A DNA stretch of 64,000 nucleotides from Vreelandella populi (GTDB lineage: Bacteria > Pseudomonadota > Gammaproteobacteria > Pseudomonadales > Halomonadaceae), in assembly GCF_003989825.1 (NCBI RefSeq), contig NZ_RZHE01000006.1, positions 496,001 through 560,000 on the forward strand, in the 5' to 3' direction. How positions within the stretch are numbered: position 1 is the stretch's first letter; each line of letters opens with the position of its first letter. This document shows positions 41,783 through 44,592 of this stretch, piece by piece. The notes under the pieces are model-generated. The model was not told the DNA's origin, made no database searches, and was given only the letters and a program-made list of their open reading frames with translations. The translations under genes were made by a program, and so were the position numbers.

Positions 41783-41860
41783 ATGGACTTAAAGGATATG
41801 AATTTAAAGAACATGCGTTTGAATCATGCGCTCAGCCCCGAATTCAAGAGGTGGCAATGA
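41783..41860 (+). CDS. Possible 25-codon leader peptide between secD and secF
   Basis: A short frame MDLKDMNLKNMRLNHALSPE then FKRWQ, stop. Its TGA overlaps the secF ATG (CAATGA), as expected for translational coupling. The peptide repeats an M-x-L-K/N-x unit (MDLKD, MNLKN, MRLNH), mirrored in the DNA by repeats of ATGNANTTAAAG. A GA-rich stretch (AAGAG) lies just before its ATG. It could be a real leader, or merely a remnant of a duplicated start region; no homologue is known to me. Confidence 0.35.
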   Translation: MDLKDMNLKNMRLNHALSPEFKRWQ

Positions 41861-42783
41861 AACCCCTATCACACCTGCAAATCGACTTTATGGGACGGCG
41901 TAAGCTTGCGTTTATCGTCTCTGCTTTAATGCTGATTGTGTCGATTGGCGCTATCGTGTTCCAACAGCTTAACCTGGGGCTCGACTTCACCGGCGGCACG
42001 CTGATTGAAGTGCGCTACGCCACGGCGCCCTCGCTGGATGCCATTCGCCAGCTGATGGTAGAAAGTGGCTTTAGAGATGTCTCGGTACAGACCTTCGGTG
42101 CATCCACTGAGGTGCTTATCCGCCTGCAGCAGGCGTTCGACCCGGATGTCGGCAGCGATGTCGTCAACCTGCTGCGCACCAGCGGTGAGAGCGTCAACCT
42201 GGTACGCGCCGAGTTTGTCGGCGCCCAGGTAGGCGATCAGCTGCGCGACCAAAGCGGCCTGGGCCTGCTGGTCGCGCTTGGCGTAGTGATGCTGTATGTC
42301 GCCTTCCGCTTCCAGTACAAGTTTGCCATCGGAGCGCTCGTCGCCCTGCTTCACGATGTGATCATCGTGGTGGGCATCTTTGCGCTGTTCCAGCTTGAGT
42401 TCGATCTGACCGTACTGGCGGCCATTCTGGCGGTTATTGGCTACTCGTTGAACGACACAATCGTCGTCTATGACCGTATTCGTGAAACCATCCGCACTTC
42501 GCGTATCGACGATATGCCGCAAATCTTCAACGAAGCGATCAACGCCACGCTGTCACGTACGCTGGCAACCTCCGGCACCACCATGCTGGTACTGATTGCC
42601 CTGCTCTTGCTGGGCGGCGATATGATCGAGAACTTTGCGATTGCCCTGTTGATTGGCATCGGCGTGGGCACGTTCTCCTCCATCTACATCTCGGGCGCGC
42701 TGCTGCTGCCGCTCAAGCTTTCGCGTGAGGACCTGATCCCCACCAAGAAAGCCATTGATGAAGAGGAAGAAGAGCTGCCCTAA
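41857..42783 (+). CDS. secF: Protein translocase subunit SecF
   Basis: A 308-residue membrane protein acting with SecD and YajC. The start MKPLSHLQIDFMGRRK at 41857 is placed by AAGAGGTGG seven bases before it. Motifs: LGLDFTGGTLIEVRYA, FQYKFAIGALVALLHDVIIVVG, GYSLNDTIVVYDRIRET and RTLATSGTTMLVL, all typical of SecF, with six spans. Its start overlaps the stop of the small frame at 41783-41860. An intrinsic terminator follows. Confidence 0.96.
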   Translation: MKPLSHLQIDFMGRRKLAFIVSALMLIVSIGAIVFQQLNLGLDFTGGTLIEVRYATAPSLDAIRQLMVESGFRDVSVQTFGASTEVLIRLQQAFDPDVGSDVVNLLRTSGESVNLVRAEFVGAQVGDQLRDQSGLGLLVALGVVMLYVAFRFQYKFAIGALVALLHDVIIVVGIFALFQLEFDLTVLAAILAVIGYSLNDTIVVYDRIRETIRTSRIDDMPQIFNEAINATLSRTLATSGTTMLVLIALLLLGGDMIENFAIALLIGIGVGTFSSIYISGALLLPLKLSREDLIPTKKAIDEEEEELP

Positions 42784-42916: not shown

Positions 42917-43711
42917 TCAAAAATGCGGTGCCAGCTGCTTGATCATGGCCTTGTAAAGGCGCGGCCCGGCGGCCATCAACTGCCCTTCCACCTTGACGCT
43001 TGGCTGGCCATCGGGCGTGCCCATAAGTGCACCGGCTTCTTTCAAGAACAGGGTACCTACCTGCATGTCCTGCTCTTCCATGCCCATCACGAACGCGCTG
43101 TCGACACGGCCAGCCGCCAGTTCGCACATGTCCAGCAGGCCACAGCCGGTCGCCACCAGGGTTTCTACCTGCGGGGCAAGCTGTTGGGTGACGGTAAGGT
43201 AGGCAGGCAGATGACTAGGACGCAGCCACGCTTCAGGAAGGCTCATAGCCAGGCGTGTGCCAGTAATCGCGGTGGGTTTGCTGACCCGCATACGCTTGCC
43301 ATTGTGCTGGGCGCCACGGCCGCGGCTGGCAATGTATTCATCATCGCCAAAGGGGGCGATAACCACCGCGTGTTCCGGGCGGCCTTTGATAAGACACACC
43401 ACTGAGAGAGCAAAGCCTTTACCCGCTACCGCCAGATTGGAGTAGCCATGCATGGGTTCAATCTTCCAGACGATCTCTTCTCCTTCGCCTTCGCCAGCCT
43501 TGTGAGGCGTGTAGCGACCGGTAACACCGTGCTGGGGATAGCCGCGCTCCAACTGATGCACAATTGTCGCTTCGGCCTTGCGCGCCGTATCTTCAAGCAG
43601 GCGGTCAAGATTGGATTCTTCATGGGCGTTTTCGATACGCTCACGAACACGTTGAAATTGTTCAACCGCGCTGCGCGCCGCGCGCAGCGTAAATTGGACC
43701 ATCGGATTCAT
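42917..43711 (-). CDS. suhB: SuhB-like protein with eroded inositol monophosphatase motifs
   Basis: A 264-residue member of the IMPase superfamily, aligned along its whole length with SuhB (start MNPMVQFTLRAARSAVEQF; YIASRGRGAQHNGKRMRVS; end APHF). The Mg2+-binding motifs are changed. The usual DPLDGTTN reads EPMHGYSN (residues 85-92), the EVDR aspartate region reads LLEDTARKAE, the GEEG loop is absent, and WDIAAG reads QDMQVG, keeping only Asp215. Phosphatase activity is therefore doubtful. E. coli SuhB also works without catalysis in the rRNA antitermination complex with NusA and RNA polymerase; that role may be what is kept. It is divergent from trmJ, as in other gammaproteobacteria. Confidence 0.88.
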   Translation of the reverse strand: MNPMVQFTLRAARSAVEQFQRVRERIENAHEESNLDRLLEDTARKAEATIVHQLERGYPQHGVTGRYTPHKAGEGEGEEIVWKIEPMHGYSNLAVAGKGFALSVVCLIKGRPEHAVVIAPFGDDEYIASRGRGAQHNGKRMRVSKPTAITGTRLAMSLPEAWLRPSHLPAYLTVTQQLAPQVETLVATGCGLLDMCELAAGRVDSAFVMGMEEQDMQVGTLFLKEAGALMGTPDGQPSVKVEGQLMAAGPRLYKAMIKQLAPHF

Positions 43712-43854
43712 GATCGGGCCTTGTCACAGTGATGTTAAAGAACGTTAGGCGCAGGACTGCCTATGGCGCGCAATTCTAGCAGACCCCTCTCGGGCACGCT
43801 ATCGACTCGTGCTAAACTGCCCGTTTTCTGCTTTTGATCACCGAGCCTATTATC

Positions 43855-44592
43855 ATGCTTGAGCGCATTCGTATCGTTTTAATCGGCACCAGCCATCCCG
43901 GCAATATCGGCGGCGTCGCCCGCGCCATGCACAACATGGGCCTGGCCGATCTAGCGCTGGTCGCCCCTCGCTGTGAGGTAATTACCCAGGACAGCATCTC
44001 CCGCGCGTCCGGCGCTGATCATCTGTTGCACCAGGCAAGCGTCTACGCAACGCTTGAAGAAGCCGTCTCCGATTGCACGCTGGCCGTTGGCGCCAGCGCC
44101 CGCTCCCGCACCCTGCCCTGGCCCATGCTGACCCCTCGCGAATTGGCGGATCGCCTGCCAAGCGAATGTCAGGCGGCCGCTTCACGTGTGGCGCTGGTAT
44201 TTGGCCGGGAAGATAGCGGCCTGACCAACGCCGAGCTTCAGCGCTGCCATGCCCATGTGCATATTCCCACCAACGCAGATTTCAGTTCGCTCAACCTGGC
44301 CGCTGCGGTACAGGTGTTGGCCTATGAATGCCGCATGGCCTGGCTAAGCCAGCAAGACGTAACTCCTGCGCCTGTCGCCGATGATGAGCTAGTTACTCAC
44401 GAGGAGCTTGAGCGCTACTTTGAGCATCTCGAGCGCACCCTGATTGCTATCGAGTTTCACGACCCTTCCCAGCCTCGCCAGCTGATGGCGCGGCTGCGCA
44501 GGCTCTATTTGCGTGCCCGCCCGGAAAAAATGGAAATGAACATTTTACGCGGCATTTTATCCGCCACTGAAAAAGCGGCAGGCAAGCCATAA
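43855..44592 (+). CDS. trmJ: tRNA (cytidine/uridine-2'-O-)-methyltransferase TrmJ
   Basis: A 245-residue SPOUT methyltransferase modifying the ribose at position 32 of tRNAs. The start MLERIRIVLIGTSHPGNIGG at 43855 matches the family; a TTG at 43834 is an alternative with no support. Other motifs: VARAMHNMGLADLALVAPR, LVFGREDSGLTNAELQRCH, and IPTNADFSSLNLAAAVQVLAY, which forms the trefoil knot and SAM site. The C-terminal helices (LERYFEHLERTLIAIEFHD) complete the protein. Divergent from suhB and followed by cysE and iscR, the usual order. Confidence 0.95.
   Translation: MLERIRIVLIGTSHPGNIGGVARAMHNMGLADLALVAPRCEVITQDSISRASGADHLLHQASVYATLEEAVSDCTLAVGASARSRTLPWPMLTPRELADRLPSECQAAASRVALVFGREDSGLTNAELQRCHAHVHIPTNADFSSLNLAAAVQVLAYECRMAWLSQQDVTPAPVADDELVTHEELERYFEHLERTLIAIEFHDPSQPRQLMARLRRLYLRARPEKMEMNILRGILSATEKAAGKP

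Follow-up and report, generated by a model that had tools for sequence, protein, structure and literature searches.

We propose that the SuhB protein of a Vreelandella is a pseudophosphatase, which has lost the Mg-dependent site of inositol monophosphatases (IMPases) and has been retained as a single-purpose Nus factor; judging from sequence, we give this reading a probability of about 84%. For this protein we infer NusA and RNA binding, antitermination and autoregulation, and the absence of phosphatase activity. The initial annotation had suggested a pseudoenzyme kept for its role in transcription antitermination, and the suggestion gained support from the residues that contact the NusA AR2 domain, a NusA with AR2, purifying selection as strong as on the neighbours and, in the leader, an exact boxA. 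The gene and its neighbours lie in the window (the whole 64,000-nucleotide stretch that was analysed) as follows:

42917..43711, minus strand: degenerate suhB, 264 amino acids, putative pseudophosphatase and proposed Nus factor (open reading frame, profile and structure-sequence matches).
43834..44592, plus strand: trmJ, the divergent neighbour that marks the suhB locus, in E. coli too; its start is possibly at 43855.
41851..42783, plus strand: secF, the convergent neighbour on the opposite side of suhB.

Both sequence and locus identify the gene as an orthologue of suhB, carried by a Vreelandella (Halomonadaceae). Its open reading frame starts with ATG, and it combines full-length similarity to SuhB with a place beside divergent trmJ, having secDF on one side and the divergent trmJ-cysE-iscR-iscS cluster on the other; E. 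coli suhB is likewise divergent to trmJ, with iscR further on. The best solved relative was P. aeruginosa SuhB (PDB 9j90 and 8wdq; E 6e-46, 160 bits, residues 1-263), and E. coli SuhB (PDB 2qfl) matched with E 5e-36 and 128 bits, at 30% identity. Apart from its altered motifs the protein aligned end to end with SuhB, as first noted (residues 1-263 or 1-260 across the solved SuhBs), and it matched Pfam Inositol_P with 87.5 bits (cut-off 27). It missed the cut-off of the NCBIfam equivalog PRK10757 (134.6 against 332 bits). In the order, intact SuhBs included, 0/28, 0/28 and 1/34 genomes passed it, and in a class-level sample 58 of 232 did. Since order genomes with an intact SuhB miss this cut-off too, it is narrow and not diagnostic here. 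Among named relatives (80 of the 268 loci found, from Vreelandella, Halomonas, Halovibrio and Billgrantia, the window's own genome possibly being absent), the closest to the window locus was Vreelandella songnenensis, at 99%. AlphaFold2, run on the window SuhB and 37 named relatives, gave a mean pLDDT of 44 and a pTM of 0.40, too low for the model to be used.

Three of the four acidic metal ligands, which in IMPases are E67, D84, D87 and D212 (E. coli numbering), are replaced in the window protein. The segments concerned are:

43508..43516, minus strand: RYT, codons 66-68, counterparts of ligand E67 and its neighbour E68 (R66 and Y67).
43436..43459, minus strand: EPMHGYSN, codons 85-92, counterpart of DPLDGTTN (D84 to E85, D87 to H88, T89 to Y90); coordinates computed from the open reading frame.
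43064..43072, minus strand: QDM, codons 214-216, counterpart of W-D-x; the Asp ligand is D215 and the Trp is gone.

E67 is thus replaced by R66, D84 (conservatively) by E85 and D87 by H88. The fourth ligand, D212, is still Asp (D215), and its W-D-x-A-A-G context is lost, W211 having become Q214 and AAG having gone. Further replacements are D44 to A43, E68 to Y67 and T89 to Y90, at what are presumably catalytic residues or their neighbours, and the counterpart of K34 is replaced as well. Instead of the four ligands and T89 expected of an inositol monophosphatase, the window SuhB therefore has R66, E85, H88, D215 and Y90. The motif changes first read from the DNA were all present: EPMHGYSN stands in the open reading frame in place of DPLDGTTN, the EVDR and GEEG regions read TAR for VD[RK] and GRYT for GEE[GS], and EQDMQVG was found where WDxAAG was expected (WDIAAG having become QDMQVG). 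In contrast, P. aeruginosa SuhB keeps DPLDGTTN and WDMAAG. The accompanying claim, that several metal ligands were lost, stands for E67, D84 and D87, but not for D212. Since the named relatives share the same residues (E85, H88, Q214 and K254 in 80/80, R66 and D215 in 79/80), sequencing error is excluded as the source of the site changes.

The retained D212 and the conservative change of D84 argue against our reading to the extent that they would leave room for residual metal binding. The protein might then still be a slow or differently tuned phosphatase working via D215, E85 and other residues, and the retained Pfam family fits this. We consider it very improbable, because the counterparts of E67, D87, T89, D44 and K34 are all replaced, and because two other IMPases with complete sites are encoded in the same genome.

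Returning to loss of the site, we tested 86 positions that are conserved at ≥85% in 66 intact genera (E. coli included). Five of them that had not been used for sorting, and that are active-site residues in human IMPA1 (K34, D44, E68, T89 and E205), had a family-mean retention of 0-0.11 in the degenerate groups. The median was 0.66 for the other 77 conserved positions (p = 0.0002, with the active-site set assumed from human IMPA1). The strictest marker of loss was the pair R184 and E205 (E. coli numbering): intact genera conserve them at 92% and 89%, respectively, and retention is 0 in all degenerate families; R184 has reportedly been discussed for the SuhB dimer and for RNA polymerase. Their disappearance from all degenerate families is a point against a retained Nus role. 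One family of the order, coded f37, contains a half-way state (L097, L110, L199, L201 and L204), in which D87 and E67 are kept, D84 is Asn or His, D212 is Glu or Thr, and DGT is DS[LIV]. These half-way SuhBs may reveal the sequence of site decay.

A family-level search gave a SuhB match in all 151 genomes, from 24 genera. Sequences were inspected in 150 of them (70 sequences from 23 genera, and 80 more genomes that brought the 24th genus; G076 was left out): 135 retain one of the four ligands, 15 retain none, and not one is intact. The question of when the motifs were lost could be answered in part: because the loss is present in all 24 genera, it most likely predates the Halomonadaceae. The former site is not drifting within the family. 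Of the 150 members, 142 have His at the D87 position, 140 have Arg at that of E67 and 132 have Asp at that of D212, and among the 70 sequences Gly is found at G88 in all and Asn at N91 in 63. Conservation of the His and the Asp, and of G88 and N91, would suit a dead phosphatase whose pocket has been re-used for another ligand, making SuhB a sensor or a new enzyme with its Nus role secondary or lost. We regard such re-use as unlikely: the His is not common to the other degenerate families, some of which nevertheless have the AR2 contact or boxA, and the local conservation may be partly structural, as W81 is kept throughout and most groups largely keep N91 and G88.

Loss of the site extends beyond the family. 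An order-level search found SuhB matches in 376 of 390 genomes; from these and from further searches we assembled 188 sequences, 187 from 46 families (coded f1 for the Halomonadaceae, f6 and so on) and that of E. coli, counted as intact. Non-orthologous IMPases and duplicate loci had been dropped before this count; G351 (f15, a degenerate SuhB about 1 kb from trmJ) was dropped as well. In 175 of the 188 the gene adjoins and diverges from trmJ; the other 13 were assigned by sequence or other neighbours. Every sampled sequence carries all four ligands in 36 of the 46 families, mostly represented by 1-3 genomes each. Wholly degenerate families are f1 (70 in the order set), f6 (9), f7 (2), f20 (3), f27 (4), f37 (10) and f38 (6), and mixed ones are f15 (5/6 degenerate), f39 (4/13) and f44 (5/8). 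The f12 gene, truncated by a contig end with 3/3 visible ligands kept, was excluded from site and residue counts. No SuhB was recognised at the trmJ loci of G152 (the only f3 genome), G264 and G370 (both f15) and G309. Genomes of f27 and f37 (G214, G447, G513, G186, G398 and others) have a second TrmJ-like gene, with 43-47% identity to the window TrmJ.

At class level, SuhB matches were obtained in 230 of 232 genomes, three of which belong to the order. We followed 19 of these genomes, chosen as low-scoring or for comparison; 13 had a trmJ match. Outside the order, a degenerate SuhB without the K251 contact stood beside trmJ in two more families (L382; L389 and L390). One trmJ match (L388, G641:C7:263424-263996) lay inside a 24,230-residue open frame, which probably consists of masked or unknown bases.

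We asked how often the site was lost using a NusA+TrmJ tree of 60 rows, from which G442 was excluded (intact SuhB, f15; NusA fragment, 82% complete, possibly misbinned). The degenerate label needs at least five changes on this tree, two of which are forced by well-supported branches. A single common origin of all degenerate SuhBs was rejected (AU p 0.006 against one clade, the test group having been named from the trait and not from the tree). With f44 and f39 set aside, the remaining 33 degenerate rows are compatible with one clade (AU p 0.70), with a likelihood above that of the free tree. In a small FastTree tree of SuhB itself, the degenerate and intact f44 sequences are neighbours (0.994), and one group (0.993) holds the degenerate sequences sampled from f1, f6, f20, f27, f37 and f38; these groupings are tentative owing to long branches. 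We read this as at least two losses in the order and probably three, namely a large old one, one in f44 and one in genus g99 of f39.

If phosphatase activity was lost, another IMPase might have taken over. The window's own genome has five IMPase-family genes, of which two are CysQ above the curated cut-off. Two others, L001 and L002, have intact ligands and 152 and 142 bits to PRK10757, carry Asp or Glu at the K251 position and lie on a different contig from suhB. A second, intact SuhB doing the antitermination work, the case raised at the outset against a specialised pseudoenzyme, was not found among the five genes: both other intact IMPases lack the contact Lys and the trmJ locus. L002 falls together with similar IMPases from f6, f7, f20, f38 and f44, in a group whose base lacks reliable support. 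These belong to an IMPase subfamily with the motif DPIDGTVN[FY] and no K251 counterpart, which co-occurs with degenerate SuhB in f1, f6, f7, f20, f38 and f44. Its members are:

C4:252205-252948, own genome: L002, an IMPase with DPIDGTVN[FY].
Other genomes: L129-L132, L134-L139 and L165-L170, IMPases with the same motif.

This IMPase is a possible replacement for the lost phosphatase. Among the tree genomes, another IMPase with at least 130 bits to PRK10757 was present in 24 of the 38 that are degenerate and in 0 of the 21 that are intact. Counted as independent pairs, the association comes down to 2 when supported branches are used and to 5 when all branches are (sign test p 0.5-1). It is weakened by f27, most of f37 and others, in which SuhB is degenerate and a second IMPase is missing, and by G442, outside the tree, which has another IMPase at 149.7 bits beside its intact SuhB. 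We therefore treat the idea that loss was accompanied by a second IMPase as a lead only.

In E. coli SuhB, double mutation of K251 and L254 lowers the affinity for AR2 of NusA from 94 nM to 141 μM, according to PMC6614801. Their counterparts in the window are:

42941..42952, minus strand: KAMI, codons 254-257, matching the AR2-contact residues K251 and L254 of E. coli SuhB.

The window SuhB has both the Lys (K254) and a hydrophobic residue at position 254 of E. coli (I257). At K251, Lys or Arg stands in 114/118 of the degenerate and 66/69 of the intact sequences, and residue 254 is Leu, Ile, Val or Met in 110/118 and 64/69, respectively; by chemical-group retention the two positions rank 11th and 10th of the 86. 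In the family set, K251 is Lys or Arg in 149/150 and residue 254 is Ala in 25/150, Ile being the window residue. The Ala members speak against a strict contact in those proteins, because Ala, together with K251A, breaks the contact in E. coli. On the side of the partner, 59 of 60 genomes encode a NusA with AR2; in the remaining one, NusA is a fragment. Across genomes, 28 to 46 of the 71 AR2 residues are identical to those of E. coli, and the window's own NusA has 38/71. In genus g99 of f39 (L174, L214, L215 and L223), the active site and the K251 Lys are lost at the trmJ locus, with Arg in 2/4 and no boxA.

The degenerate gene evolves under constraint. In the Vreelandella group, median dN/dS was 0.062 for suhB (85 pairs), 0.060 for trmJ (47), 0.071 for secF (83) and 0.044 for cysE (84), with 150 pairs drawn and those with dS outside 0.05-1.5 omitted, and the open frame was 263-264 amino acids long in 80/80 named relatives. 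At a TrmJ identity of 0.40-0.60, median SuhB identity was 0.295 for degenerate (1341 pairs) versus 0.547 for intact (1367) sequences. This faster divergence would be expected of a decaying gene heading to loss. For the Halomonadaceae decay is contradicted, and hardly credible overall, given a dN/dS equal to that of the neighbours, a frame and a boxA kept in nearly all named relatives, and a match in every family genome; genus g99 of f39, or small genomes, may be exceptions. The divergence is consistent with release from catalytic constraint while other constraints remain. Residues retained in both degenerate and intact groups include P3, W81, G132, R139, R141, E222, G232 and K251.

The suhB leader provides further evidence for a retained Nus role:

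43733..43743, minus strand: boxA GTTCTTTAACA, exact to GYTCTTTAANA (consensus of PMC5725501), 21 bp upstream of the suhB ATG.
43746..43763, minus strand: short boxB-like stem-loop TAGGC...GCCTA immediately ahead of boxA, with weak support.

The same 11 boxA letters stand 17 bp upstream of E. coli suhB. In PMC5725501, GYTCTTTAANA is given as the gammaproteobacterial boxA consensus, and the E. coli suhB boxA is described as functional, recruiting Nus factors and repressing suhB. The same study reported that boxA stands ahead of suhB in many of the genera it covered, Halomonas not being named in the main text; the Vreelandella-type suhB boxA itself may already be listed in its supplement. Since the suhB leader carries the boxA that in E. 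coli recruits Nus factors and represses suhB, the window gene appears to bear the mark of Nus autoregulation. In 32 of 79 named loci (L288-L367; shuffled mean 9.3, maximum 15), boxA is directly preceded by a stem-loop with at least 5 pairs, whose sequence varies, an arrangement that is boxB-like, as in rrn leaders.

This is the only exact boxA in the window (11 at ≤1 mismatch, 5.0 expected), and the whole genome has 17 exact matches, against 5 for a backwards-pattern control. An Rfam scan of 10 of these 17 loci placed one about 180 bp ahead of a 16S gene (L369) and six without rRNA; three of the ten lay within 65 bp of contig ends. Exact boxA sequences without rRNA shown downstream, such as those at C7:391826, C8:195320 and C12:211701, may be other Nus targets or chance matches.

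Within the family the element is nearly universal. An exact boxA lay ≤150 bp upstream of suhB in 142/150 members (66/70 and 76/80), and within 60 bp in 79/80 named relatives; at ≤1 mismatch it was present in 150/150. Beyond the family, exact matches were found in 4/4 of f27 and 5/6 of f38, and matches at ≤1 mismatch in 7/9 of f6 (some 98-114 bp off) and 2/2 of f7. The reversed pattern was absent upstream of suhB in the order set (0/188) and in the 80 added family genomes (0/80). Within 150 bp upstream, exact boxA was absent from the degenerate members of f20 (0/3), f15 (0/5), f39 genus g99 (0/4), f44 (0/5), f37 (0/10), f6 (0/9) and f7 (0/2). Intact orthologues had an exact boxA in 3/70 and, with one mismatch allowed, a boxA in 16/70. 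The uneven pattern of boxA and K251 among degenerate lineages, the rarity of an exact boxA among intact orthologues sampled and the single 16S gene at the ten scanned boxA loci count against our reading.

In the mechanism we favour, SuhB is probably still a dimer of the IMPase fold, whose C-terminal segment (K254, I257) would bind the C-terminal AR2 domain of NusA. SuhB would join NusB, NusE and NusG on boxA-bearing rRNA leader RNA and, like the E. coli protein, suppress both intrinsic and Rho-dependent termination; synthesis of SuhB would probably be repressed by the same Nus complex via the leader boxA. The model is E. coli SuhB, both Nus factor and inositol monophosphatase (PDB 2qfl, 6ib7/6ib8, 6tqn/6tqo). 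The window protein shares with it the divergent trmJ locus, the IMPase family, the AR2-contact Lys and hydrophobic residue, and an identical boxA that lies 17-21 bp ahead of the start. It differs in lacking three of four acidic ligands and T89; that the role in the complex was proven with a protein only 30% identical weighs against the transfer.

Pseudoenzymes in general keep the family fold and lose catalytic residues, with another function proposed; for SuhB, what is kept would be its part in transcription antitermination. We found no paper on SuhB as a pseudoenzyme, as a catalytically inactive inositol monophosphatase or in Oceanospirillales, in a search that most subscription journals lay outside, and papers naming SuhB and Halomonas appear unrelated, judged by title. 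According to PMC6614801, IMPase activity is not needed to relieve the effects of suhB mutation; our result is only moderately surprising, because the phosphatase of E. coli SuhB was already held dispensable. What would be new is the breadth of site loss together with the retained boxA, as variation on a known protein.

Taken across the order, we lean towards an old and repeated split of a moonlighting SuhB, in which the phosphatase was dropped in several families, Nus selection and boxA autoregulation were kept, and another IMPase possibly took over in many lineages. Family-wide loss of the site with the AR2 Lys and boxA kept would make these natural separation-of-function proteins. If so, they would show that antitermination works without the catalytic site, and what is still conserved would outline the Nus surface of SuhB, the sites kept in both groups being candidate Nus, RNA or dimer surfaces. 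The name inositol monophosphatase would then mislabel the function of suhB in these halophiles.
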